Shown here piece by piece: positions 29,997 through 41,642 of a stretch of DNA of 44,683 nt. Both the position numbers and the translations under genes were made by a program. The notes under the pieces were generated by a model. The model was given only the letters and a program-made list of their open reading frames with translations, was not told the DNA's origin and ran no database searches. The stretch's first letter is position 1. Each line of letters begins with the position of its first letter. Source of the stretch: an uncultured Lachnospiraceae bacterium (GTDB lineage Bacteria; Bacillota; Clostridia; Lachnospirales; Lachnospiraceae); NCBI GenBank assembly GCA_902789665.1, contig CADAOY010000009.1, forward strand, positions 1-44,683, written 5' to 3'.

Positions 29997-30025
29997 TTGT
30001 TTTGTTCATATTAAAATGTTATAGT
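29997..30025 (+). promoter_or_regulatory. Promoter of the nitrogenase-like/hyp operon
   Basis: TTGTTT (29997-30002), a 17-bp spacer and TATAGT (30020-30025) precede the structured leader. The expected transcription start is near 30031, next to the first leader stem. Confidence 0.55.
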
Positions 30026-30028
30026 ATA

Positions 30029-30173
30029 TGTACTTTAATCCAAAGCAAAAGGGAAACCTGATGCTGAGGATAAGAGTACATTTTTTATTAGCTGACACCG
30101 AATCGGCGGATAAGGTGGAAGGACGAACATATATAGGGATTACTATGCCACTTCCGCCGGAAGTGGCTTTTTT
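30029..30173 (+). promoter_or_regulatory. Structured leader with terminator/antiterminator choice, unassigned riboswitch-like element
   Basis: GTACT and ATCC (30029-30040) can pair with GGAT and AGTAC (30067-30078) across an internal loop of UUA against AAG. They enclose AGC/GCT pairs and a GG-GAAA-CC tetraloop hairpin. Further on, GGCGG and GGTGG (30105-30118) can pair with CCACTTCCGCC (30148-30158), the 5' arm and loop of the terminator, so the two folds exclude each other. A CCG-AAT-CGG hairpin (30098-30106) overlaps the antiterminator arm. This is the layout of an attenuator or riboswitch. It matches no class I can name; function is inferred from structure only. Confidence 0.5.
30147..30173 (+). 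terminator. Leader attenuator terminator
   Basis: GCCACTTCC (30147-30155) and GGAAGTGGC (30159-30167) form a perfect 9-bp stem with a 3-nt loop, followed by six T residues. It sits inside the leader, 36 bp before the NifH-like start codon and downstream of the operon promoter, so it must be bypassed for expression. Confidence 0.85.
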
Positions 30174-30208
30174 AATAGGATTTTCAAGGAAAAGATTAGG
30201 AGTAATTT

Positions 30209-30973
30209 ATGATTAAAGTTGCAATATATGGAAAAGGCGGTATCGGCAAGTCCACTGTTACAAGTAATCTGGCGGCGGCTTTTGCCACTTTGGGTAAGAA
30301 AGTAGTTCAGATTGGCTGTGACCCGAAGGCTGATTCCACAATCAATCTTCTGGGCGGGGAGCCCCTCCTTCCGGTTATGAATTACATGAGGGAGAATGAC
30401 GCAGATCCAGAGTCCATAGATGAGATTGCGAAAACCGGATTTGGCGGCGTTGTATGTATAGAAACCGGCGGCCCTACACCGGGACTTGGCTGCGCTGGAA
30501 GAGGAATTATCGCCACCTTTTCACTTCTTGAGGATTTGAAATTATTCGAAACAGTAAAGCCGGATGTGGTACTTTATGATGTTTTGGGAGATGTGGTGTG
30601 CGGTGGTTTTGCAGCACCGATCAGAGAAGGATATGCCAAGAATGTGCTGATTGTAACCAGTGGCGAGAAGATGGCTTTATATGCTGCCAACAATATAAAT
30701 ACGGCGGTGAAGAACTTCGAGGACAGAGGCTATGCCACGGTATTTGGCGTGGTGCTCAACAGAAGAGCCGTGGAAAATGAGTACGAAAAGGTTAAGGATT
30801 TTACCGACAAAAACGGACTGAAAATCGTTGCCGACATTCCAAGAAGTAACGAGATTATCCACTATGAGGATATGGGTAAGACCGTGGTTGAAGGTGATAA
30901 GGACCTTGAGGTATCACAGAAATTCATTGACCTTGCGAAGGCTTTGATTGAGGCAGATTCCAAGGAAGATTAG
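30209..30973 (+). CDS. NifH/BchL-like [4Fe-4S] reductase ATPase
   Basis: A 254-residue homodimeric ATPase of the nitrogenase iron protein superfamily. The P-loop is GKGGIGKST (8-16), switch I contains CDPKADST (37-44), and the two cluster ligands are Cys95 in PGLGCAGRG and Cys131 in DVVCGGFA, spaced as in NifH and BchL. It delivers single electrons to a NifDK-like partner with ATP hydrolysis. The length is slightly short of NifH. It is the first gene of the operon and the only reductase, so it probably serves both NifDK-like pairs. No nifB, nifE, nifN, bch or cfb marker gene accompanies it, so neither N2 fixation nor tetrapyrrole reduction follows from context. Confidence 0.93.
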
Positions 30974-30981
30974 GAGATAGT

Positions 30982-32277
30982 ATGGCTAAAAAAGCTGTTT
31001 CATACAGTATCGAAGAACTTAATAAATTAGGCAAGGACGGGATCCCAAAGGCGCTTGTTTCGGGAGAGCATCTTATTTATAACTCTCCGGCGTCACTAAT
31101 GTTTAACTCACCTGGCGCAGAAGGCTTTGGCGTTAAGAGGGCAGGCCTCGCAGTGCCTGACTCCGTCATGCTTATTGTGTCACCTGGGTGCTGTGCAAGA
31201 AATACATCACTTATCAGCTCCATGCCTGAATATGAGAACAGATTCTTCTATCTTTTAATGGATGAAACCGACCTCGTCACAGGAAGACACCTGAAAAAAA
31301 TCCCCGACGCCATCGAAGAAATCATTAATTTTCTTCCTAAGAAGCCGTCGGCTGTAATGATATGTATTACCTGCGTGGACGCTCTTCTTGGAACAGATAT
31401 GGACAGAATCGTAAGGAAGGCTGAGGAAAAATGCAATGTTCACGTGCGCCCTTGTTATATGTATGCGCTTACAAGAGAAGGACGTAAGCCTCCTATGGTG
31501 CATGTAAGACAGAGTATTTATACACTTCTTGAAAAGCGTAAAAAGAATCCGAAGAGTGTTAATCTGCTGGGATTCTTTGCAGGACTTAAGGATGATTCGG
31601 AAGTTTATGATTTGCTTAAGAGTGTGGGAATTCAGAATATCAGAGAGATTGGCAAGTGTAAGACATATGAGGATTTCATGGATATGGGAGAGGCGAATTT
31701 TAACCTTTGTCTGTATCATGAAGCAAGATTTGCGGCAAATGATATCCAGGAAAGACTGGGAATTCCTTATATTGATATAACAAGATTTTACGATATCGAG
31801 AGAATTCGTAAGCAGTATGCGGCTTTGGGACAGGCTATCGGAGTAAGCTTTAAGGACGAGAAATATTATGAGGAAGCGAAGGCTGCGATAGAGAGAGTTA
31901 AGAAAGAGTTCGGTGAACTCACCTTTACAATTGGCGAGAGCATAAATGCCAATTCTTACGAGCTTGCGCTGGCGCTCATTAGATATGGCTTTAAGGTATC
32001 CGAGATTTACTGCGATCCGACGCCGGAGCAGTATGTATATATAAGAAAACTTTCGGAATTAAGCCCGGAGACACTTATTTTTTCCAACTTAGAGCCAACC
32101 ATGCTTTATTATGATGTTTCTAAAAAGAAATGCGATATTTCTTTGGGTAAGGATGCATCTTACTATCAGCCTGAGAGCCCGAATGTCAGATTTAATTCGG
32201 ACATTCAGCCTTATGGATACAGGGGCGTTACTGCTTTAATGAATGAGATATATGATTCGCTTAAGGAGGTGAGATAA
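30982..32277 (+). CDS. NifD-like subunit, pair 1 (nitrogenase component 1 family)
   Basis: A 431-residue oxidoreductase/nitrogenase component 1 protein. Cluster-type cysteines are Cys70 and Cys71 in SPGCCARN (compare the NifD GC motif) and Cys128 and Cys131 in ICITCVDALLGTD, which matches the NifD segment CPxGLIGDD. The first N-terminal Cys of NifD is missing. The FeMo-cofactor Cys and His ligands of NifD are not recognisable at their usual places, although NLCLYHEARF near 242-251 is a candidate region. A TAATG overlap couples it to the NifK-like gene. It should receive electrons from the NifH-like protein. Substrate unknown; it is paralogous to the protein at 38393. Confidence 0.88.
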   Translation: MAKKAVSYSIEELNKLGKDGIPKALVSGEHLIYNSPASLMFNSPGAEGFGVKRAGLAVPDSVMLIVSPGCCARNTSLISSMPEYENRFFYLLMDETDLVTGRHLKKIPDAIEEIINFLPKKPSAVMICITCVDALLGTDMDRIVRKAEEKCNVHVRPCYMYALTREGRKPPMVHVRQSIYTLLEKRKKNPKSVNLLGFFAGLKDDSEVYDLLKSVGIQNIREIGKCKTYEDFMDMGEANFNLCLYHEARFAANDIQERLGIPYIDITRFYDIERIRKQYAALGQAIGVSFKDEKYYEEAKAAIERVKKEFGELTFTIGESINANSYELALALIRYGFKVSEIYCDPTPEQYVYIRKLSELSPETLIFSNLEPTMLYYDVSKKKCDISLGKDASYYQPESPNVRFNSDIQPYGYRGVTALMNEIYDSLKEVR

Positions 32278-33326
32278 TGAAGGGACTTAGACTGGTACTC
32301 ACTCCGTTTGCGCCTGATCAGTCAGGTGCGACAGGCGTTTTATATGATATGGGAGGCATTATCATCATCTGCGATGCAGGTGGCTGCGCCGGCAATATCT
32401 GTGGCTTCGATGAGCCAAGATGGTCCAATCACAGAAGCGCTATTTTTAGTGCAGGTCTTCGTGACATGGATGCAATCCTGGGAAGAGACGACCGCCTTGT
32501 GGAGAAACTTTCCATGGCGGCAAAAGATATAGAAGCGAATTTCGTTGCAGTTATCGGAACTCCGGTGCCTGCAGTTATCGCTACTGATTATAAGGCCTTA
32601 GAGCGTATGGCAGAAAAGAAGACAGGCCTTCCTGTTATTACTGTTGAGGCCAACGGAATGCGCACATATGACAGGGGCGAAGAGGAAGCTTGTCTTGCAT
32701 TATTTAAAAAGTTTAAGCAGGATAAGGATTCCATTAAGGTTAATGAAAAAAGAGTCGGCGTTCTTGGGGCAGTTCCGATGGAACTTGGGAGCGTGGCTGA
32801 AAAGGATATGATTGTTAATAACCTTAAGGCTGAAGGCTATAAAGAGGTTACAACTTATGGCTTTGGGGCAACCTTCGATGATGTTTTAAGAGCGGGAGAT
32901 GCTTCATTAAATGTTGCAGTATCACCTGCAGGAATAAAGGCAGCCAAGTATCTTAAGGATACATATGGTACTCCTTATGAGATTAGAATGCCACTTGGGC
33001 GTAGTATTGCTGATGGTATTGATGTTAAAAATAAGAAGGTGCTGGTGGTTCATCAGCAGGTTTATGCCAATGCAGTAAGGGATAAATTATTGGAAAAAGG
33101 TGCCTTAAGCGTTGATGTAGGTTCTTATTTCATGATGGATAAGGAATTATCTGCTGAGGCTGATGTGAGACTGGAAGAAGAGGATGATTTTGTGGTTTTA
33201 ACCACGAAAGGAAAATATGACATAATTATGGCGGATGGGATTTTGAAGCCGCTAATTAAGGATTTTGGCGGTGATTATATCAATCTTCCACACTTTGCTC
33301 TTTCAGGTAAGCAGGAGGTGGTTTAA
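32277..33326 (+). CDS. NifK-like subunit, pair 1
   Basis: A 349-residue component 1 family protein, short compared with NifK. Its N-terminal block DAGGCAGNICGFDEPRW places Cys37 where NifK and NifE-type proteins have their HGxxGC cluster ligand; Cys32 and Cys42 flank it. A GTPVPAVIATD segment near 93-103 corresponds to the TTCxxEVIGDD region but lacks its Cys. It should pair with the NifD-like protein and share a cluster at the interface. Its stop overlaps the hypF start as TAATG, so the nitrogenase-like and Hyp parts are translationally coupled. Closely related to the protein at 39747. Confidence 0.85.
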   Translation: MKGLRLVLTPFAPDQSGATGVLYDMGGIIIICDAGGCAGNICGFDEPRWSNHRSAIFSAGLRDMDAILGRDDRLVEKLSMAAKDIEANFVAVIGTPVPAVIATDYKALERMAEKKTGLPVITVEANGMRTYDRGEEEACLALFKKFKQDKDSIKVNEKRVGVLGAVPMELGSVAEKDMIVNNLKAEGYKEVTTYGFGATFDDVLRAGDASLNVAVSPAGIKAAKYLKDTYGTPYEIRMPLGRSIADGIDVKNKKVLVVHQQVYANAVRDKLLEKGALSVDVGSYFMMDKELSAEADVRLEEEDDFVVLTTKGKYDIIMADGILKPLIKDFGGDYINLPHFALSGKQEVV

Positions 33327-35674
33327 TGCTTACTAAAAGGATAAGAGTATATGGCATTGTCCAGGGTGTAGGCTTCAGACCGACGGTTGCGCGCCACGCT
33401 CTTGAGTGTCAGGTTAAAGGAACGGTTTGTAACTTTGGCCCGTATGTGGAGATTTTGGTGCAGGGTTTCAGGGAGGACATAGATGCTTTTTTGAAACTGC
33501 TTAAAGAAGAGCCTCCGAAGAGAGCATCCATAATTAAGATGGATGTGGATGAGATTTATGATGAGAAAAGATATGATGCTTTTGAAATCATAGAAAGTTC
33601 CAAGACAAAAGGTGATATTTTTATTTCTCCTGACATAGCCATCTGTGATGAATGTACCAGGGAGATTTTTGATAAAAAAGACAGAAGATATCTTCATCCA
33701 TTTATCAACTGTACCTGCTGTGGCCCAAGGCTCACCATACTCGATAATCTTCCTTATGACAGGGAAAGAACTTCCATGAGTGAGTTCCCGATGTGTGACA
33801 AGTGCGCCGAGGAATATAACAGCCCTCTCTCAAGGCGATATGATGCCCAGCCTGTTTGCTGTAATGAGTGCGGACCTGAGGTTTATATTTTAGGGGGCTC
33901 GAAGGGAATTAAAGGTAGCGCCGGTGAGGTGTCTTTGGGCATTGATGGCAGCGACATTCGAGGGAAAGATGCCATAACACTTGCCAGAAAAACAGTAATA
34001 GATGGTGGCGTTATCGCAATAAAGGGAATCGGCGGTTTCCATCTTTGCTGCGATGCTACGAATGATGAGGCTGTAAAGAGACTCAGGGTACTTAAGAACA
34101 GACCCGGCAAGCCTTTTGCAGTAATGATGAAGAATATGGAAACTCTTGAAAGAGAGTGTATTGTTCCTGATAAGACCAGGGAAATAATTACAGGACATCA
34201 GAAGCCGATACTTCTTCTTACAAGAAAAGAGGGCGGACTTCTTCCTGAAAGTATAGCGCCGGATAATCCTACTGTTGGAGTTATGCTTCCATATGCGCCG
34301 GTGCAGCTTCTTTTGTTTGATTATGATGACGGTCTGACAATGCCGGACTGCCTGGTTATGACAAGCGGAAATATATCCGGTGCTCCGATCGCAAGAACGG
34401 ATGAGGATGTACTTAGTCAGATAGCAACCTACTGTGATGTGGTTTTATCCCACAACAGGCAGATTAGAACCAGGGCTGATGACTCGGTTATGGACTGGTA
34501 TGAAGATGAGCCATATATGATAAGGCGCTCTCGCGGATATGCGCCTCTTCCGGTAATGGTTGACGGCGTTATGGGCAAAAGAGTGCTTGCCATGGGAGGC
34601 GAACTTAAGAATACCTTCTGTGTAGGTTCGGGAGACCTGTTCTACCCATCTTCTTATATAGGAGACCTGGCGGATTTAAGATCTGTGGAAGCCTTAAAAG
34701 AAACGGTAGATAGATTTCTTAAGATGCTTGAGATAAAGCCGGATGTAATAGTCTGCGATAAACATCCTAAATATAATTCTACTTTGGTTGCCGAAGAATT
34801 ATCGGCTAAGATGAATGTATCGCTTATTCAGGTGCAGCATCATTATGCGCATATTCTTTCGGTTATGGCTGAGAATAATATTTTAGACAGATGCATAGGA
34901 TTAAGTTTTGATGGCACAGGATATGGAGATGACGGCACCATCTGGGGTGGCGAGATTCTTCTAAGTGATATAGACGGATATGAAAGGGCAGGATATATTG
35001 AGCCTTTCATTCAGGCAGGCGGAGACCTTTCATCCAGGGAAGGCTGGAGAATTGCAGTATCCTTATTAGGAGATATTTATGGCGAAGATGCTATGTCAGT
35101 AATTACTTCACTGGGTGTGGCAACTGAAGTTCAGGCCAGGGCAGTACTTAAAATGGTGGAACTTAAGGCCAACAGCGTGGTATCAACAAGTATGGGCAGG
35201 CTTTTTGACGGTGTCAGTGCCCTTCTTGGAATAAGGCTTAAGTCCACATTTGAAGGTGAGGCGGCCACCATCCTGCAGTTTAAGGCAGAGAAGTCGGTCG
35301 ATTATGATAAATATGATTTAGAGCATTTTGCGCCTTACAGATTAGAGGATGGAAAGGTGATTCTTAATACCAGGGAAATGGTAAGATTTATTGCTGACAG
35401 GCGCCTTAAGGGTGACAGTGCTGAAGACCTTGCAATGTATTTCCATATGGAATTAGCCCATATGGCAGTGGAAGCCTGTAAGTATCTGGAGATTATGACC
35501 AAGGTTAAGAAAGTGGCCTTAAGCGGTGGGTGTTTCCAGAATAAATTACTGTTAGGGCTTACGGAAAAAGGGTTGAAGGACGAAGGCTTTACGGTATATA
35601 AACATAAACTGATACCGCCAAATGATGGTGGTTTGTGTTTGGGACAGGCTGTGTATGGAGCAGGGTTGGCTTGA
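33326..35674 (+). CDS. hypF: Carbamoyltransferase HypF
   Basis: A 782-residue protein with the full HypF order. An acylphosphatase domain with VQGVGFRP (12-19) comes first, then two zinc-finger units (Cys107, 110, 129, 132 and Cys157, 160, 179, 182, both CX2CX18CX2C). A YrdC-like domain spans about 205-385, and a Kae1-like carbamoyltransferase domain carries VQHHYAHIL near 500. HypF turns carbamoyl phosphate and ATP into a carbamoyl adenylate and loads it on the HypE C-terminal Cys, the source of cyanide for Fe(CN)2CO. It starts inside the stop codon of the NifK-like gene. Normally it sits with hydrogenase genes; here it is embedded between NifDK-like pairs. Confidence 0.96.
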   Translation: MLTKRIRVYGIVQGVGFRPTVARHALECQVKGTVCNFGPYVEILVQGFREDIDAFLKLLKEEPPKRASIIKMDVDEIYDEKRYDAFEIIESSKTKGDIFISPDIAICDECTREIFDKKDRRYLHPFINCTCCGPRLTILDNLPYDRERTSMSEFPMCDKCAEEYNSPLSRRYDAQPVCCNECGPEVYILGGSKGIKGSAGEVSLGIDGSDIRGKDAITLARKTVIDGGVIAIKGIGGFHLCCDATNDEAVKRLRVLKNRPGKPFAVMMKNMETLERECIVPDKTREIITGHQKPILLLTRKEGGLLPESIAPDNPTVGVMLPYAPVQLLLFDYDDGLTMPDCLVMTSGNISGAPIARTDEDVLSQIATYCDVVLSHNRQIRTRADDSVMDWYEDEPYMIRRSRGYAPLPVMVDGVMGKRVLAMGGELKNTFCVGSGDLFYPSSYIGDLADLRSVEALKETVDRFLKMLEIKPDVIVCDKHPKYNSTLVAEELSAKMNVSLIQVQHHYAHILSVMAENNILDRCIGLSFDGTGYGDDGTIWGGEILLSDIDGYERAGYIEPFIQAGGDLSSREGWRIAVSLLGDIYGEDAMSVITSLGVATEVQARAVLKMVELKANSVVSTSMGRLFDGVSALLGIRLKSTFEGEAATILQFKAEKSVDYDKYDLEHFAPYRLEDGKVILNTREMVRFIADRRLKGDSAEDLAMYFHMELAHMAVEACKYLEIMTKVKKVALSGGCFQNKLLLGLTEKGLKDEGFTVYKHKLIPPNDGGLCLGQAVYGAGLA

Positions 35675-35698
35675 TATATGATAATGGAGCGCATTTTC

Positions 35699-35791
35699 TT
35701 TAGCGCCGCGTCCAAAACTACTCTCCCAAAAGCTCATTGAAGCAAGCTTCAGGGGTTCGCTTTTGTGAGAGCATTTTGTCCTTGCGCTAAA
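35699..35791 (+). repeat. Structured intergenic RNA element, copy 1 (hypF-hypC gap)
   Basis: This copy folds into one long hairpin. TTTAGCGC (35699-35706) pairs with GCGCTAAA (35784-35791); inside lie CAAAA/TTTTG, CTCTC/GAGAG, a C-U mismatch, CAAAAGC/GCTTTTG and an apical TGAAG-CAAG-CTTCA stem-loop. Copies 2 and 3 keep the fold with altered pairs. After it, 35800-35840 contains a smaller TTCGT-TGG-ACGAA hairpin before the hypC ribosome binding site (TAGGAGG). No T-run follows, so it is not a simple terminator. Confidence 0.8.
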
Positions 35792-35855
35792 AGGGAAAAG
35801 TTGTCGCGGATTCGTTGGACGAAGCGCGTTAGGTATAAATTAGGAGGATATAAAA

Positions 35856-36068
35856 ATGTGCGTTGGAATTGCAGGTAAAGTAGTTAAAGTGCAGGATGGT
35901 ATGGCTGTAATTGATGCAGGTGGAGCAAAAAGAGAAGTGTCAGCGGCTCTTCTTGAAGAACTTGAGCCTGGTGATTATGTTATGGTTCATGCCGGAGCAG
36001 CCATTGCCAAAATTTCTTCAGATGATGACGAGGAAGTTAATCAGGTTATGGAGGATCTTAAAGCATGA
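35856..36068 (+). CDS. hypC: Hydrogenase maturation chaperone HypC
   Basis: A 70-residue protein beginning MCVGIAGKVV, the invariant HypC/HybG N-terminus, with Cys2 as the iron ligand. HypC carries Fe and works with HypD to assemble Fe(CN)2CO before passing it to the target apoprotein. It is of normal length and has the usual beta-barrel segments. Its end overlaps hypD by 4 nt (ATGA). Because HypC normally binds the hydrogenase large subunit, its target here is an open question: none is encoded in the window. Confidence 0.96.
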   Translation: MCVGIAGKVVKVQDGMAVIDAGGAKREVSAALLEELEPGDYVMVHAGAAIAKISSDDDEEVNQVMEDLKA

Positions 36069-37114
36069 TAGATGATGCAATCAAAATCGTAAAAGAATAT
36101 AAGGGTAAGAAACTTCGAATTATGGAAGTTTGCGGAACCCATACCCATGAGATTTTCAAGCAGGGTGTAAGGCAGCTTCTCAGCGAAGATATCGATTTAA
36201 TCTCAGGCCCTGGCTGCCCTGTATGTGTAACTCAGGTGGATTATATAGATGAGGCAGTTATGCTTGCCTTAGAAAAAAATGTAACCATCTGCTCATTCGG
36301 AGATCTTCTTAAGGTACCAGGCACAAAGTACAGTTTATCAGCAGCAAGGGGACAGGGTGCAAAAGTGCAGGTAGTATATGCGCCACTTGATGCGGTTAAA
36401 TATGCCAAAGAGCATCCTGATGAGGAAGTGGTTTTCTTATCTGTTGGTTTTGAAACCACAGTACCATCTTCATGTATTGCCCTTCAGCTTGCCATTAAAG
36501 AAGGAGTTAAGAATTTTTCACTTCTTACAGCCAATAAGACAATGCCTGTAGCATACCGCGCCATGAAGAATGCCTGTGACTGTTATCTTTATCCGGGACA
36601 TGTGCATGCCATAATCGGTACAGGACTTTGCGAGGAATTAAGAGACAATGAAGGAATCAGCGGCGTGGTGGCGGGTTTTACACCAAAGGAACTGGTAACT
36701 GCCATTGCTGTTGCAGTAACAAAACTTCAGGAAGAGAAGCCTTTCTTTGTTAACTGCTATCCAAGAGTGGTTAAGCCTGAGGGAAGTCCTGCAGCTGTTA
36801 AGCTTATATATGAGTATATGGAAAGCTCAGACGAGGAGTGGAGAGGACTTGGAACCATGCCGGGTTCAGGTCTTAAACTTAAAGATAAATACAGCGAATA
36901 TGATGCGAGAATCAAATTTGCGATTCCGCCAATGCACGGTCATGGCAATCCTGCCTGCAGATGTGCAAGCGTACTTAAGGGAGAGATTAAGCCATATGAG
37001 TGCCCATGTTTCGGCAAGATTTGTACTCCGGAGCACGCAGTTGGTGCCTGCATGGTATCTGATGAAGGAGCCTGCTCAGCGTGGTATCTGTATGGTGGAC
37101 TTGATTTGAAATAA
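36065..37114 (+). CDS. hypD: Hydrogenase maturation protein HypD
   Basis: A 349-residue protein with all HypD landmarks: CGTHTHEIF (Cys23), SGPGCPVCVTQ (Cys51 and Cys54, redox pair), a GFETTVP segment near 125-131, and the C-terminal [4Fe-4S] region with cysteines in YECPCFGKIC and HAVGACMV. HypD holds the iron while cyanide groups are added. It overlaps hypC by 4 nt. No active-site residue appears lost, so the Fe(CN)2CO pathway looks functional and not relic. Confidence 0.96.
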   Translation: MIDDAIKIVKEYKGKKLRIMEVCGTHTHEIFKQGVRQLLSEDIDLISGPGCPVCVTQVDYIDEAVMLALEKNVTICSFGDLLKVPGTKYSLSAARGQGAKVQVVYAPLDAVKYAKEHPDEEVVFLSVGFETTVPSSCIALQLAIKEGVKNFSLLTANKTMPVAYRAMKNACDCYLYPGHVHAIIGTGLCEELRDNEGISGVVAGFTPKELVTAIAVAVTKLQEEKPFFVNCYPRVVKPEGSPAAVKLIYEYMESSDEEWRGLGTMPGSGLKLKDKYSEYDARIKFAIPPMHGHGNPACRCASVLKGEIKPYECPCFGKICTPEHAVGACMVSDEGACSAWYLYGGLDLK

Positions 37115-37137
37115 AATAAGCGCTAGGACATTACTTC

Positions 37138-37222
37138 GCACTGCGTCGAAAACTACTCTCCCCAAAGCTCATTACAGCAAGCTGTACAGGTTCGCTTTGT
37201 GGAGAGCATTTTCTCCTTGTGC
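37138..37222 (+). repeat. Structured intergenic RNA element, copy 2 (hypD-hypE gap)
   Basis: Same fold as copy 1 with compensatory changes: outer GCAC (37138-37141) with GTGC (37219-37222); GAAAA with TTTTC, where copies 1 and 3 have CAAAA/TTTTG; CTCTCC with GGAGAG; CAAAGC with GCTTTG; and apical TACAG-CAAG-CTGTA in place of TGAAG-CAAG-CTTCA. The unpaired TCAT, GGTTC and CAAG loops are unchanged. The rest of the 152-bp gap shows only AT-rich sequence and a GAGGAAAG ribosome binding site. Confidence 0.8.
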
Positions 37223-37266
37223 TACATTCACTATTTGGTTAGATCTAGAGAAAAGAGGAAAGATAA

Positions 37267-38271
37267 ATGAATGATGTAATTACAATGGCTCACGGAGCCG
37301 GTGGAAAACAGACAAATGAATTAATAGATAAGGTATTTAAGGAATATTTTTCCAATCCTTTATTTACGGGTGATGACGCTGCAGTCATGGAAGCTCCAAA
37401 GGGACGAATTGCCATGTCTACTGACGGTTTTATTGTATCTCCAAGATTTTTCCCTGGCGGAAATATTGGCAAACTCTCCATCTGCGGAACAGTTAATGAC
37501 TTATCATGTATGGGTGCCAAGCCATTATATTTAACCTGCGCATTCGTTATCGAGGAAGGTCTTGAGATTGAAGAACTTCGCCGAATTGCTGAAGCCATGA
37601 AGAAAACTGCAGATGAGGTTGGAGTCAGAATCGTGGCAGGTGATACCAAGGTTGCCGGAAAGGGACAGGTTGACGGAGTCTTCATTACTACCACAGGTGT
37701 TGGTGAAATAATGGAGGGCGTTAATACATCCGGCACTTTAGCTAAAGACGGAGATGTGGTTATAACCACGGGAGATATTGGTCGTCACGGCTGCACTATT
37801 TTGCTCCAGAGAGATGATTATGGAATTGATGCAGAAGTTGAAAGTGACTGCGCTCCACTTTGGAATCTTGTTAAGGAATCACTTGATGCAGTTCCTGAAA
37901 TTCATGTAATAAGAGATGCCACAAGAGGCGGCGTGGGAACAGTGCTTTATGAAATCGCAGGCCAGAGTAATGTTGGTGTTGAGATTAATTATGATGATAT
38001 TCCTGTTAAGGAAGAAGTTAAGGGTGTCTGCGGTCTTCTTGGCCTCGAGCCATTATATCTTGCCAATGAAGGCACACTTGTTATGATAGTTCCAGAAGAG
38101 AAGAAGGACATTCTTCTTGATACTCTTCATAAGAATAAATATGGCAAAGGCGCAGCAGTAATTGGAAGAATTACTTCTGATCATCAGGGATACGTTGTAT
38201 CCAATACCCAGCTTGGAGTTAAGACAATACTGCCACAGCCGGGTAATGAGTTATTGCCGAGGATCTGTTAG
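37267..38271 (+). CDS. hypE: Hydrogenase maturation protein HypE
   Basis: A 334-residue PurM-like ATPase. It starts with MAHGAGGKQTNELI and has FTGDDAAVM near 37-46. It ends in the exact PRIC tail, whose final Cys334 is carbamoylated by HypF and dehydrated to thiocyanate, the cyanide donor. The intact tail shows that this is a working HypE and not merely a relative. It lies between RNA element copies 2 and 3. HypA, HypB and the maturation endopeptidase, needed for nickel insertion and processing of [NiFe]-hydrogenases, are absent here. Confidence 0.96.
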   Translation: MNDVITMAHGAGGKQTNELIDKVFKEYFSNPLFTGDDAAVMEAPKGRIAMSTDGFIVSPRFFPGGNIGKLSICGTVNDLSCMGAKPLYLTCAFVIEEGLEIEELRRIAEAMKKTADEVGVRIVAGDTKVAGKGQVDGVFITTTGVGEIMEGVNTSGTLAKDGDVVITTGDIGRHGCTILLQRDDYGIDAEVESDCAPLWNLVKESLDAVPEIHVIRDATRGGVGTVLYEIAGQSNVGVEINYDDIPVKEEVKGVCGLLGLEPLYLANEGTLVMIVPEEKKDILLDTLHKNKYGKGAAVIGRITSDHQGYVVSNTQLGVKTILPQPGNELLPRIC

Positions 38272-38278
38272 TAGTTTT

Positions 38279-38376
38279 ATGCCGCCACGCTGCGTCCAAA
38301 ACTACTCTACCAAAAGCTCATTGAAGCAAGCTTCAGGGGTTCGCTTTTGTTAGAGCATTTTGTCCTTGCGTGGCAT
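38279..38376 (+). repeat. Structured intergenic RNA element, copy 3 (hypE-NifD-like gap)
   Basis: Same fold again. The outer stem is CCACGC (38285-38290) with GCGTGG (38368-38373), extended by ATG/CAT. Then come CAAAA/TTTTG, CTCTA with TAGAG (C-G changed to A-T relative to copy 1), CAAAAGC/GCTTTTG and apical TGAAG-CAAG-CTTCA. It fills the gap and ends next to the GAGAGG ribosome binding site of the following gene. Confidence 0.8.
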
Positions 38377-38392
38377 GAGAGGTATTAAACCA

Positions 38393-39724
38393 ATGTTACA
38401 AAGAGTTAATCCAAGTGAATCAAATAATTCCATGGTGCCTGTGGGAAAGGCGGATTTTCCACTTCCTTTTAAACAGGCATTGGAATATTGTGCGCCTGTA
38501 AGGGAAGCCTGGAATATTGTGCATATTGGTATGCTGCTTCCTGAGGCCCATCAGATTTATGTCTGCGCAGATAACTGTATGCGTGGTGTAACCATGACGG
38601 CAGCAGAGATGGGTGAGGCAGACAGATTTCATTGTGTAATCATTAATGAAAGAGATATGCTTTATACAAATCTTGATGAAATCACCATCGAAGGCGTAAC
38701 TGACGTACTTAATAAACTGGATGAACTGCCTCCGGCAGTCCTTCTGTTTACTGTATGCGTTCACCATTTTTTATCAAGCGACATTGAGCATATCTACAGG
38801 GAACTTGAGTCGAGATTTCCGGGCATCAACTTCATCAGATGCTGGATGGACCCGGTTATGCAGAAGAATCACCTCTTCCCAGATGTGGTTGAGAGAAATG
38901 CAATGCTTGATAAGGTGCCATTAAGGGATGTGAATCCAAAACAGGTCAATGTATTCGGCGCTGATATTCCTCTTGATAAGGACAGTGAGCTTGAGAAGAT
39001 GATTGAGAATGCAGGCTGCATTGTCCATGAGTTTCCAAGATTTGAGACTTACGAGGACTATCTTAAAATAGGCGAAGGAAGGATTAATATCACAACCTAT
39101 CCGGCCTTCAAGTATGGCGCAGATAATTATTCAGAGCGCACCGGTCGCACAAATCTTTATATGCCTTCGCCTTTTTATTATGAAGAAATAGATGAGCAAC
39201 TTAAGACTTTAAGTGAAGTGCTTGGTGTGAAGATGCCGGATGTGGATGAACTTAAAGTTAAGTGCGAAGACAGACTGAGTGAACTTAAAAAAGAACTTGG
39301 GGATACCCCGGTTTTCCTTGATTATATGGCGCACACAAGACCTCTTGGCCTTGCAAGAATGCTTTTAAATTATGGCATAAATGTAAAAAGAGTTTACTTG
39401 GATGCTGTTATGGGTGAAGAGGAAAATGATTTTAAATTCCTTAAGGAAAATTATCCTAACCTCGAGCTTTGCGCTACAGTAAGACCTGTTATGAGAGTAG
39501 CCGACAGGAAACAGGATGGTAAGGTTCTTGCGATAGGACCGAAGGCGGCGTTTTTTGCCAATACGGAATTCTTCGTAGATCAGATAGAATGTGGCGGTCT
39601 GTGGGGATATACAGGAATTATAAAACTTTGTGATAAGATTTCTGAAGCCTTTGGCACCCCTAAGGATGTGAAAAAAGCAGTAAGTATCAAGGGCGCAGGA
39701 AACAGATGCCTGCCCTTTGAATGA
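38393..39724 (+). CDS. NifD-like subunit, pair 2
   Basis: A 443-residue component 1 family protein. Start at the ATG at 38393, ten bases after GAGAGG; in-frame TTG (38360) and ATG (38375) codons lie within the structured RNA element and lack ribosome binding sites. From this start, cysteines Cys33 (EYCAPVREAW), Cys58/Cys62 (YVCADNCMRG) and Cys122 (FTVCVHHFLSSD) match the three NifD positions that hold the P-cluster or its [4Fe-4S] counterpart. Nif cofactor ligands are not evident. A block FETYEDYLKIGEG aligns with CKTYEDFMDMGEA in the pair 1 protein, and both end with a GY-G segment, so the two are paralogues. Function unknown. Confidence 0.85.
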   Translation: MLQRVNPSESNNSMVPVGKADFPLPFKQALEYCAPVREAWNIVHIGMLLPEAHQIYVCADNCMRGVTMTAAEMGEADRFHCVIINERDMLYTNLDEITIEGVTDVLNKLDELPPAVLLFTVCVHHFLSSDIEHIYRELESRFPGINFIRCWMDPVMQKNHLFPDVVERNAMLDKVPLRDVNPKQVNVFGADIPLDKDSELEKMIENAGCIVHEFPRFETYEDYLKIGEGRINITTYPAFKYGADNYSERTGRTNLYMPSPFYYEEIDEQLKTLSEVLGVKMPDVDELKVKCEDRLSELKKELGDTPVFLDYMAHTRPLGLARMLLNYGINVKRVYLDAVMGEEENDFKFLKENYPNLELCATVRPVMRVADRKQDGKVLAIGPKAAFFANTEFFVDQIECGGLWGYTGIIKLCDKISEAFGTPKDVKKAVSIKGAGNRCLPFE

Positions 39725-39746
39725 TTAGGGCCATCGGAGGAAAGAA

Positions 39747-40976
39747 ATGAGAGAAACTTACAAAATAGTGCCTGTTTATTCAGGGGATGTGTCCGGTGCC
39801 TGCTCTGCGCTTTATGAGCTTGAGGGTATGGTGGTTATGCATGATCCGTCAGGCTGCAATTCCACATATAATACCTTTGATGAGAACAGGTGGTATGAGA
39901 AGGAGAGCCTGATTTTTCTCTCCGGTCTTACGGACACAGATGCCATTATGGGCAATGACAAAAAGTTAATAGATGATATTTTAGAGGCGGCAAAAGAACT
40001 TAAGCCTAAATTCGTGGCGATAACCAATTCGCCGATTCCGTATCTTAACGGCACGGATTTTGACGGTATTTGCAGGAAGATTGAGAATGAGCTGGGGATA
40101 CCGGCTTTCTATATTCCGTCAAATGGAATGCATGATTATACAATCGGAGCCGGCAAGGCGCTTATGATAGCAGCGAAGAAACTTATGAAGGATAAGGCAC
40201 AGCCGGCAGCAGACGCTCAGGAAATCGGCGTTCAATCTACAGGCGACATGGCAGCGGACGATCAGCCGTCCGATAGTCAGACCACACGCAGCGAAGCCGA
40301 GGCCGATATCATCGAAATCGAAGAAATCAAAGTAAATCTTGTAGGAATCACTCCCCTTGATTATTCCAAGGAAAACGCGGTTTCCGACATAAAGGAATGG
40401 CTTAAGTCATCAGGCTTTACTTTTAATTCGTCACTTTCTTTGGATACATCTTATGATGAATTTGTTAATGCGCCGGATGCTGATGTGAATCTGGTATTGT
40501 CATCAGTTGGTATGGAATGCGCCATCTATATGAATGAAAAATATGGAATTCCTTATGTGGTTGGCTCACCAATCGGCGACATGGCGAAGTTCATTGCTGA
40601 AGATATCAGGGAAAGTCATGAGAATAAGAAGAATATTAATTCATATAAGAGGGTTGCTTATGGTAGCGGAGAAGGCCTTGTTAAGTTAATAGGCGAGCCG
40701 GTTTTCATGGGCTCCATGGCAGCCTCAATTCACATACTTACCGGAAGGACAGCTCAGGTCATCGTGCCGACAGAATATAAGACAGATCTTCTTGGTTCAG
40801 GGGACATCGCAGTAACAGGCGAAGAAGAAATCGAGAAAGCCCTTAATGCCGATAAGGACAGAACTCTTGAAATAATAGGTGATGGAATGTATACTAGGAT
40901 TGCACCTGAGGGTGTAAGATTTATTAACGTTCCTCACCTGGCTTTGTCAGGAAGAATGTATCAAAATAATAAGTGA
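39747..40976 (+). CDS. NifK-like subunit, pair 2, with inserted linker
   Basis: A 409-residue paralogue of the protein at 32277. HDPSGCNSTYNTFDENRW gives Cys37 at the cluster position, with Cys19 upstream, and an ITNSPIPYLNGTDFDG segment parallels GTPVPAVIATD. Between about residues 151 and 190 it has a charged, low-complexity insert (ADAQEIGVQSTGDMAADDQ and following) absent from pair 1. The DNA of this insert is visibly more GC-rich than its flanks. The ribosome binding site is GGAGGAAAG. It should form the pair 2 complex with the protein at 38393. The final segment VPHLALSGRM parallels LPHFALSGKQ in pair 1. Confidence 0.85.
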   Translation: MRETYKIVPVYSGDVSGACSALYELEGMVVMHDPSGCNSTYNTFDENRWYEKESLIFLSGLTDTDAIMGNDKKLIDDILEAAKELKPKFVAITNSPIPYLNGTDFDGICRKIENELGIPAFYIPSNGMHDYTIGAGKALMIAAKKLMKDKAQPAADAQEIGVQSTGDMAADDQPSDSQTTRSEAEADIIEIEEIKVNLVGITPLDYSKENAVSDIKEWLKSSGFTFNSSLSLDTSYDEFVNAPDADVNLVLSSVGMECAIYMNEKYGIPYVVGSPIGDMAKFIAEDIRESHENKKNINSYKRVAYGSGEGLVKLIGEPVFMGSMAASIHILTGRTAQVIVPTEYKTDLLGSGDIAVTGEEEIEKALNADKDRTLEIIGDGMYTRIAPEGVRFINVPHLALSGRMYQNNK

Positions 40977-40997
40977 AAAGAATAAAGGAGATTTATT

Positions 40998-41642
40998 ATG
41001 GACTCAAATCAGACAAACATTGAAGCACCTGTTAAGACAGGACCTACAGGTTTAAGTATTACATCATTGGTTTTTGCATTTCTTTGCCCACCGGTTGGTT
41101 TTATATTAAGTATTATTGACCTTATTAGAAAGCATGGAAGAAAGAAATTCTTATCAGTTATCGCACTTATTGTTTCCTGTGTAATTGGATTAGTTGCCAT
41201 TGTTGTTGCTGCCATATTATTTGGAGTAATGGCGCCGCAGGTTGCCAAGTATACTGAAAAATCCAATGTTTCTTCAGATATGCAGCTTTGCGAAAGCGTT
41301 AAAACTGCAATAACAACCAGTATGCTGGACCCGGCTGTTATAAATTCCGATAATGCGGGAATTCCTGCTGAGAATCAGTGGATATATGTTGAAGATATTG
41401 ATACAAGCACTGATTTTGGCCGTAGCTTTGAAGAAATGATGGGTGCCAAGCCTTATGAAATTGAGCAAATGATGATTAAGTCATCATATATGGGTACTAA
41501 AGCCAGTGGAATGAGATTTATGATTTCAGGTGCTAATACGGTTATAGTTGAAATAGAACATTCAGACAGTACGGGAAATAAGGGCAGGGATTATAGCAAC
41601 TCGCCGATATCAACATATTCTTATTCTTATTATTCTTACTAA
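40998..41642 (+). CDS. DUF4190-like membrane protein with pilin-like C-terminal region
   Basis: A 214-residue protein. Residues 15-45 and 50-80 are two hydrophobic helices with the pattern of DUF4190 (LSITSLVFAFLCPPVGFILS). The second helix leads into a segment (AKYTEKSNVSSDMQLCESV) that resembles the alpha-1 helix and following region of type IV pilin-like proteins (compare yxeKSxxxxDxqxxxxixtAi). The C-terminus is a Ser/Tyr-rich tail. No prepilin peptidase site is apparent. It starts 22 nt after the nitrogenase-like operon without a terminator between, so it may be its last gene by read-through; functional linkage is doubtful. AAAGGAGA ribosome binding site. Confidence 0.6.
   Translation: MDSNQTNIEAPVKTGPTGLSITSLVFAFLCPPVGFILSIIDLIRKHGRKKFLSVIALIVSCVIGLVAIVVAAILFGVMAPQVAKYTEKSNVSSDMQLCESVKTAITTSMLDPAVINSDNAGIPAENQWIYVEDIDTSTDFGRSFEEMMGAKPYEIEQMMIKSSYMGTKASGMRFMISGANTVIVEIEHSDSTGNKGRDYSNSPISTYSYSYYSY

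Follow-up and report, generated by a model that had tools for sequence, protein, structure and literature searches.

What is a complete set of hypC, hypD, hypE and hypF doing between two pairs of nitrogenase-like genes, in a stretch of DNA that holds no hydrogenase? The stretch (the window, 44,683 nucleotides) covers positions 1 to 44,683 of contig CADAOY010000009.1 in assembly GCA_902789665.1 of an uncultured Lachnospiraceae bacterium, contig C9 of a 2.25 Mb genome that is 91.5% complete in 10 contigs. It carries, all on the + strand, the nine genes H, D1, K1, hypF, hypC, hypD, hypE, D2 and K2, exactly in the order that an initial annotation had read from the letters. That annotation proposed a nitrogenase-like complex that builds or uses a cofactor containing Fe-CN/CO. 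An Fe-CN/CO unit is still the likely object of the cluster, and hypCDEF appears to be reserved for the nitrogenase-like genes; the target, however, is likely a precursor of the H-cluster of [FeFe]-hydrogenases and not the cofactor of a new nitrogenase-like enzyme, because in related bacteria D2, K2, HydE and HydF stand in a single array and because the genome of the window has no HydG match over the cut-off. The initial annotation missed HydE, HydF and HydA since these genes lie elsewhere in the genome. We thus propose a probable HydG-independent route to the H-cluster, in which HydE receives an Fe-CN-CO synthon from HypCDEF and the nitrogenase-like reductases. That the set is linked to H-cluster maturation is well supported; the chemistry given to each protein below is what we infer.

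The cluster opens with H (30209..30973), a NifH-like ATP-dependent Fe protein of the clade that accompanies D1K1, which keeps the P-loop and both [4Fe-4S] cysteines (PF00142, E 3.9e-85; 301 bits with the nifH model TIGR01287, under its cut-off of 394). Eight bases further on lies D1 (30982..32277), a nitrogenase component 1-like alpha protein, followed by its short component 1-like partner K1 (32277..33326). The hyp block consists of hypF (33326..35674), a carbamoyltransferase with acylphosphatase, two zinc-finger, YrdC and Kae1-like motifs, hypC (35856..36068), a scaffold chaperone starting with Met-Cys, hypD (36065..37114), a [4Fe-4S] scaffold with GPGCPVC and the C-terminal cysteine pattern, and hypE (37267..38271), a cyanide-forming dehydratase ending in PRIC. 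All four products thus carry their catalytic motifs and exceed the curated NCBIfam cut-offs (HypF 734 bits against 466, HypC 63 against 48, HypD 374 against 193, HypE 425 against 252). The set closes with D2 (38360..39724), a divergent component 1-like protein with a cysteine near its C-terminus, and its partner K2 (39747..40976), 22 bases apart. PF00148 matches D1 at E 6.7e-38, K1 at 4.7e-22, D2 at 1.9e-14 and K2 at 4.9e-30. The true start of D2 is probably the ATG at 38393 and not the mechanically called TTG at 38360, because the alignment of its relatives begins there. Genes overlap by TAATG at D1|K1 and K1|hypF and by ATGA at hypC|hypD, as the initial annotation had seen, and gaps of 181, 152 and 88 bases separate hypF from hypC, hypD from hypE and hypE from D2 (taken from 38360). 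No hydrogenase subunit, hypA, hypB, maturation protease or nifB lies in the window, the last four having been looked for there only. Nor does the window offer a tetrapyrrole or CfbCD-type context.

The set is conserved well beyond this genome. We searched 295 genomes of the order with K2, fetching the neighbourhoods of the matches, and 391 genomes of the class with a K2 profile (E <= 1e-25); genomes are labelled G, loci L and contigs C. D2K2 of this kind is present in 31 genomes over both draws, 25 with D1 (hyp-type; hyp genes seen in 24), five with importer genes instead (importer-type) and G151. The order draw gave 16 of them, including the window's; 15 have D1 and are hyp-type, with hyp genes seen in 14. 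In the remaining one, G293 (70% complete), the contig breaks off behind D1, and a search of the genome gave no HypD. The set of G238 is split over two contigs, yet H, a fused D1K1, hypC-F, D2 and K2 are all retained. In G151, D2 and K2 lie at a contig end and are followed by a substrate-binding protein (BLAST), with no HypD found in the genome; it is labelled T1 in the K tree and motif counts and T2 in the HydE tree. The class draw added 15 genomes outside the order, ten of them hyp-type with hyp genes in all ten (G411, G598, G496, G351, G487, G575, G592, G425, G447, G633). A near-identical locus, L001, the only one that a single-protein search gave, occurs in Lachnospiraceae bacterium UBA4338 (D1 97% and H 100% identical), and a second H gene adjoins D2 in many hyp-type sets. 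Since the order H-D1-K1-hyp recurs in genomes of six families, it is far beyond chance, and the linkage of hyp with NifDK-like genes, which the initial annotation had asked to be surveyed, is conserved.

In the five importer-type genomes (G655, G361, G513, G431, G647), D2K2 is joined by genes for an ATPase, a BtuC/FecCD-like permease and a substrate-binding protein; one such binding protein is L165:10784-11971. No hyp gene was found within the stretches fetched from these five genomes, to which the search for HypCDEF was confined. The K2 profile has one match in each of them, as against at least two in each of the ten hyp-type genomes of the class draw, so that K1 is missing genome-wide from the importer type at E <= 1e-25.

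What ties the set to the [FeFe]-hydrogenase is the company it keeps. In one family of the order, HydF and HydE directly precede H2-D2-K2 (by model, three such loci score 501-557 bits with TIGR03918, cut-off 326, and 534-562 with TIGR03956, cut-off 255). Altogether hydE and/or hydF share an array with D2K2 in 19 of the 31 genomes, from six families (G293, G251, G160, G075, G136, G287, G120, G290, G281, G496, G351, G487, G575, G592, G425, G447, G655, G361, G513; for G281 and G290 the linkage follows from where the matches lie on a single contig). All 31 have HydE over cut-off, in G281 and G290 partly, at contig ends. HydF is over cut-off in 15 of the 16 genomes of the order, the exception being G281, and was seen by BLAST in ten of the 15 class-draw genomes, the ten in which it was sought. 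A match to PF02906 is found in 31 of 31, at E <= 1e-45 in 30, the weak one (1.7e-24) being the sole match of G287, which is 71% complete. The genome of the window has HydE on contig C5, HydF on C6 and, on C7, a HydA with the three H-cluster motifs (ITSCSPGW, MPCTAKKFE and EVMACPGGCINGGG); the pattern for the first motif is unmatched in G084, G135 and G151. This HydA (L087, C7:41072-41929) reads TSCSPGW at motif L1, where other rows have TSCCPGW or TSCCPAW, and the variant also occurs in several other genomes, one of them with HydG (G041).

HydG, in turn, is absent from all 31 genomes in which D2K2 of this kind was found. In the order, HydG (TIGR03955) is over cut-off in 134 of 295 genomes, with best E-values between 1.8e-72 (a split hit) and 5e-290. 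None of the 16 genomes with D2K2 reaches the cut-off; their best matches (E 2e-15 to 8e-56; 2e-20 in the window's genome) are probably relatives of HydE and ThiH. When only genomes with HydF are considered (153, being 147 listed over cut-off plus six split hits; tool tally 151), 129 of the 138 that lack D2K2 have HydG, as against 0 of the 15 that carry it (Fisher p 6e-15, for genomes that are not independent). In the class draw, the search for HydG and HydE covered 23 of the 391 genomes, the HydF and PF00374 models being applied to the order only: the 15 genomes with D2K2 all have HydE and none has HydG, and six of the other eight have HydE, the same six having HydG (p 2e-5). An assembly gap is an unlikely reason for the missing HydG in G269 and G411, as each is listed with a single contig. 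On trees, which were quick searches supported by the Shimodaira-Hasegawa-like approximate likelihood ratio test (SH-aLRT) only, the HydE and HydF proteins of D2K2 genomes are interspersed among those of HydG-bearing genomes. The HydE tree holds only 8 HydG-positive rows; the HydF tree includes 40 HydG-positive genomes, 25 of the 31 with D2K2 and 8 of the 9 that have HydF and neither HydG nor D2K2. Being interspersed in this way, these proteins look like normal H-cluster maturases that receive their usual substrate; a special HydE clade for D2K2 genomes was looked for on the HydE tree and not found. Two genomes have two HydE genes each, one beside D2K2 (G361, L162 and L217; G447, L177 and L219).

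Do the Hyp proteins belong to this set, or do they serve a [NiFe]- or Ech-hydrogenase, their place among nitrogenase-like genes being incidental? HypC starts with Met-Cys and HypD has GPGCPVC in 25 of 25 rows, and HypE ends in PRIC in 23 of 23 (a stricter C-terminal cysteine pattern of HypD is kept in 15 of 25; the rows of the window and of L001 are near-copies). Motifs needed to synthesise cyanide and to hold the iron are thus retained, and the four proteins are those of the known HypCDEF of [NiFe] maturation. An incidental placement could draw on the Ech-like match to PF00374, the family of the [NiFe] large subunit, in 8 of the order's 16 genomes with D2K2. The other 8 of 16 have no match to PF00374, however, among them G269 and G173, both listed as 100% complete; so it is in 7 of the 15 hyp-type genomes, including the window's (91.5% complete), where the initial annotation had recommended a search for a large subunit. 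As a comparison, PF00374 is present in 15 of 15 HypD-bearing control genomes without the set (15 tested of 40; p 0.006). The cluster HypD differs further in forming one branch (22 rows, SH-aLRT 100) apart from 19 control HypD, 11 linked to Ech and 8 to [NiFe]-hydrogenases by their neighbours or, failing that, by a PF00374 search. G238 even keeps two HypD, one beside Ech and the other with hypC and hypF of this set, and the order H-D1-K1-hypF-C-D-E recurs across families. An incidental association is thus hardly credible, and the idea of HypCDEF as a helper of Ech was dropped on the separate HypD clade, the two HypD of G238 and the genomes without PF00374.

The nitrogenase-like proteins, too, form branches of their own. 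H proteins partnered with D1K1 form one branch (24 rows), as do K1 (23 rows) and the K2 proteins of the hyp and importer types together (32 rows), all with support 100, and the three H motifs (the P-loop and two [4Fe-4S] cysteines) are kept in 50, 50 and 51 of 51 H rows. H, D1, K1, D2 and K2 meet none of the NCBIfam cut-offs listed for nif, bch and cfb. H reaches 290 bits of 402 with CfbC, 201 of 345 with BchL and 189 of 331 with BchX, and D1, K1 and K2 score 76, 63 and 72 against a nifE cut-off of 505; a nitrogen-fixing enzyme or a tetrapyrrole reductase was dropped as a candidate on these unmet cut-offs. A parallel is NifH with NifEN, an ATP-dependent reductase with an alpha-beta scaffold. 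The best relatives with solved structures for D1 and K2 include NifE and NifD; the cluster proteins differ in scoring far under the NifE, NifD and NifH cut-offs. Cysteines are invariant in the cluster rows of D1 (C70, C71, C131, C226), K1 (C37, C42), D2 (C69, C73, C133) and K2 (C37). Compared with what we take to be the ligand positions in NifE, they would be suitable ligands for an interface [4Fe-4S] cluster like that of NifEN or dark-operative protochlorophyllide oxidoreductase. At the position that we assume for the NifD cysteine that binds the iron-molybdenum cofactor, D1 has no cysteine and K2 a serine, D2 aligning there without confidence; a cluster like that cofactor is therefore unlikely in D1 or K2. 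The D2 proteins of both types end in a tail that is mostly KG-x-GC, and 28 of 28 rows have one or more cysteines among their last 16 residues; the PRIC tail of HypE offers itself for comparison.

Simpler relatives exist in the order and the class. Plain H-D-K sets (type 3: L049-L056, L171, L172, L175, L176, L213) have related H, D and K proteins, and most adjoin genes of the size of a substrate-binding protein, a permease and an ATPase, a similar importer that is matched by BLAST in L049 and L050; in L213 only the binding protein is so matched, and no importer-type genes were seen beside L175. They differ from the present set in having no hyp, hydE or hydF beside them and no D2 tail (a cysteine in the last 16 residues in 0 of the 6 D rows shown), and their K proteins fall outside both the K1 and K2 branches. 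A replacement of all of HydEFG by the plain sets was considered and dropped, as they show no association with the absence of HydG, which is over cut-off in G026, G467, G437, G364 and G552 and not in G185, G264, G161, G067, G279, G166, G156 and G430. Other nitrogenase-like H, D and K proteins with substrates of their own are those of the methylthio-alkane reductase MarHDK and of the isethionate nflHDK in group IV, for which titles and abstract beginnings mention no hyp or hyd genes (PMC12552129, PMC11423573).

How might such a set stand in for HydG? HydG uses tyrosine to build an Fe(Cys)(CO)2(CN) synthon, which then goes to HydE (PMC11736057, PMC13360658); HydE binds and adenosylates a synthetic analogue of the HydG product, and a synthetic [2Fe] complex bypasses both HydG and HydE (PMC11736057). 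HypEF make cyanide and HypCD carries Fe(CN)2CO (PMC12130793, PMC11565642), the source of the CO in anaerobic HypCD chemistry being an open question (PMC12134894), and the Fe protein NifH can reduce CO2 to CO (PMC9571451). From these points we infer that H-D1K1 supplies CO or replaces a CN by CO on the HypCD unit. In the proposed route, HypF and HypE would form cyanide from carbamoyl phosphate, an Fe-CN-CO unit would be assembled on HypC-HypD, and H with D1K1 would use ATP for a low-potential step, in which most probably CO is made or a CN is exchanged for CO. Such an exchange would turn Fe(CN)2CO into an Fe(CN)(CO)2-type synthon like the one HydG makes from tyrosine. D2K2, with its own or a shared H, may then reduce, store or hand the synthon to HydE, perhaps using the cysteine tail of D2 in the handover, after which HydE and HydF would complete the [2Fe] cluster and, in their usual way, charge the hydrogenase with it. 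Neither DK pair would be a terminal enzyme. The proposed role resembles that of HydG, the supply of an Fe-CO-CN synthon to HydE, and the proteins are unrelated: a tyrosine lyase on one side, ATP-driven Hyp and nitrogenase-like proteins on the other.

The boldest part of the proposal concerns the importer type. Because a FecCD/BtuC-like importer takes the place of H-D1K1-HypCDEF there, the product of this module would be, or would resemble, a diffusible iron complex, which suggests that it can be imported instead of made. It is tempting to extend this to a full scheme, in which D2K2 converts the iron-cyanide-carbonyl complex made by H-D1K1-HypCDEF into the substrate of HydE and importer-type bacteria take the same complex from their neighbours; we hold this scheme to be possible but, as a whole, on the unlikely side.

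Several observations weigh against a HydG-independent route to the H-cluster, the argument for which is drawn from genomes. Neither hydE nor hydF was seen next to D2K2 in 12 of the 31 genomes, among them the window's, some of the contigs ending there. HypCD is known for Fe(CN)2CO and not for Fe(CN)(CO)2, so that the route has to assume a further step. For these related genomes the well supported branches of the HydF tree leave only three independent comparisons; in an average of 2.8 of the 3 the set coincides with the absence of HydG, and none shows the opposite (p 0.25), the best tree having ten label changes. Exceptions also exist: G017, G252, G260 and G268, of one genus, and G156 have HydE, HydF and PF02906 with neither HydG nor D2K2, and G008, G053, G129 and G174 have HydF and, over cut-off, neither HydG nor HydE, nor D2K2. 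G156 carries a plain H-D-K set, and in the four genomes of one genus hydE and hydF lie side by side (L065, L066, L067, L084), perhaps with another source of CO and CN. Finally, 56 of 65 genomes of the order with neither HydF nor HydG match PF02906 at E <= 1e-45, many near 1e-90 (65 of 137 such genomes were tested, six type-3 and 59 others, nearly all at least 95% complete). Since HydA is common without HydF and HydG, a HydA that works or is idle may come about in other ways as well, and for this reason a lack of HydG was no longer taken as diagnostic by itself. [FeFe]-hydrogenase genes unaccompanied by any of the three maturases were noted in a few species in 2011 (PMC3226654), so that HydA, whether matured or not, can occur in other settings.

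The same abundance of HydA without HydF and HydG leaves room for a reading closer to the initial annotation, namely that HypCDEF builds the Fe-CN/CO cofactor of a nitrogenase-like enzyme, one DK pair being the scaffold and the other the catalyst as in NifEN and NifDK, that HydE and HydF have been recruited for it, and that HydA, which need not depend on them, is matured otherwise or idle. The HydE and HydF of D2K2 genomes, however, form no separate clade and are mixed with the proteins of HydG-positive genomes; HydG is missing from all 31 D2K2 genomes, the arrays share, by eye, no gene besides those named here, and the cysteine of the NifD cofactor is lacking in D1 and K2. We thus regard such an enzyme as quite unlikely. 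The set might also replace HydG more modestly, by supplying only free CO and CN, or CN alone, for HydE or HydF to take up. HydF with HydE gave about 1% activation without HydG, doubled by added CO or CN, in a Clostridium paper that discusses HydG-less activation by stray CO and CN (PMC9431212). HypC and HypD, the iron scaffold, are however present in all 25 hyp loci examined whose contig is not cut before them; the importer type, moreover, resembles importers of iron complexes and of B12. A supply of free ligands therefore appears very unlikely, and delivery of an Fe-CN-CO synthon to HydE is the reading that we retain.

The component families are all known, and the pathway that they seem to form is of no kind found in the literature searched. 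HydG is described as providing the H-cluster with its CO and CN (e.g. PMC13360658, 2026), and open-access PubMed Central to August 2026, by titles and abstract beginnings, holds no report of hyp or nif-like genes in H-cluster assembly, bioRxiv and most subscription literature lying outside this scope. No paper in that collection to the same date contains both 'nitrogenase-like' and 'hypCDEF'.

A feature of the hyp block itself deserves mention. A palindromic element of about 124 nucleotides occurs in three copies, 72-75% alike (35666-35789, 37101-37224 and 38250-38373), each within a gap between hyp-block genes or spanning one, with stems that differ by paired changes. Its core is found at no further site of the window with up to 3 mismatches allowed, Rfam has no match across 30000-41500, and the exact core occurs once in L001, whose hypD and hypE are adjacent. 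The element looks like a mobile one of the repetitive extragenic palindromic or miniature inverted-repeat transposable type.

If the proposed route is correct, HypCDEF would have a new client and nitrogenase-like proteins a new role in organometallic synthesis, which would bear on the open origin of CO in anaerobic HypCD chemistry (PMC12134894). It might also offer an alternative for making active [FeFe]-hydrogenases in laboratory hosts. For the bacteria that carry the set, it would mean that the machinery of [NiFe] maturation, nitrogenase-like reductases and the [FeFe]-hydrogenase are joined in one route, a second biosynthetic origin of the H-cluster; if the scheme of uptake by the importer type held as well, an organometallic precursor would be shared between cells.

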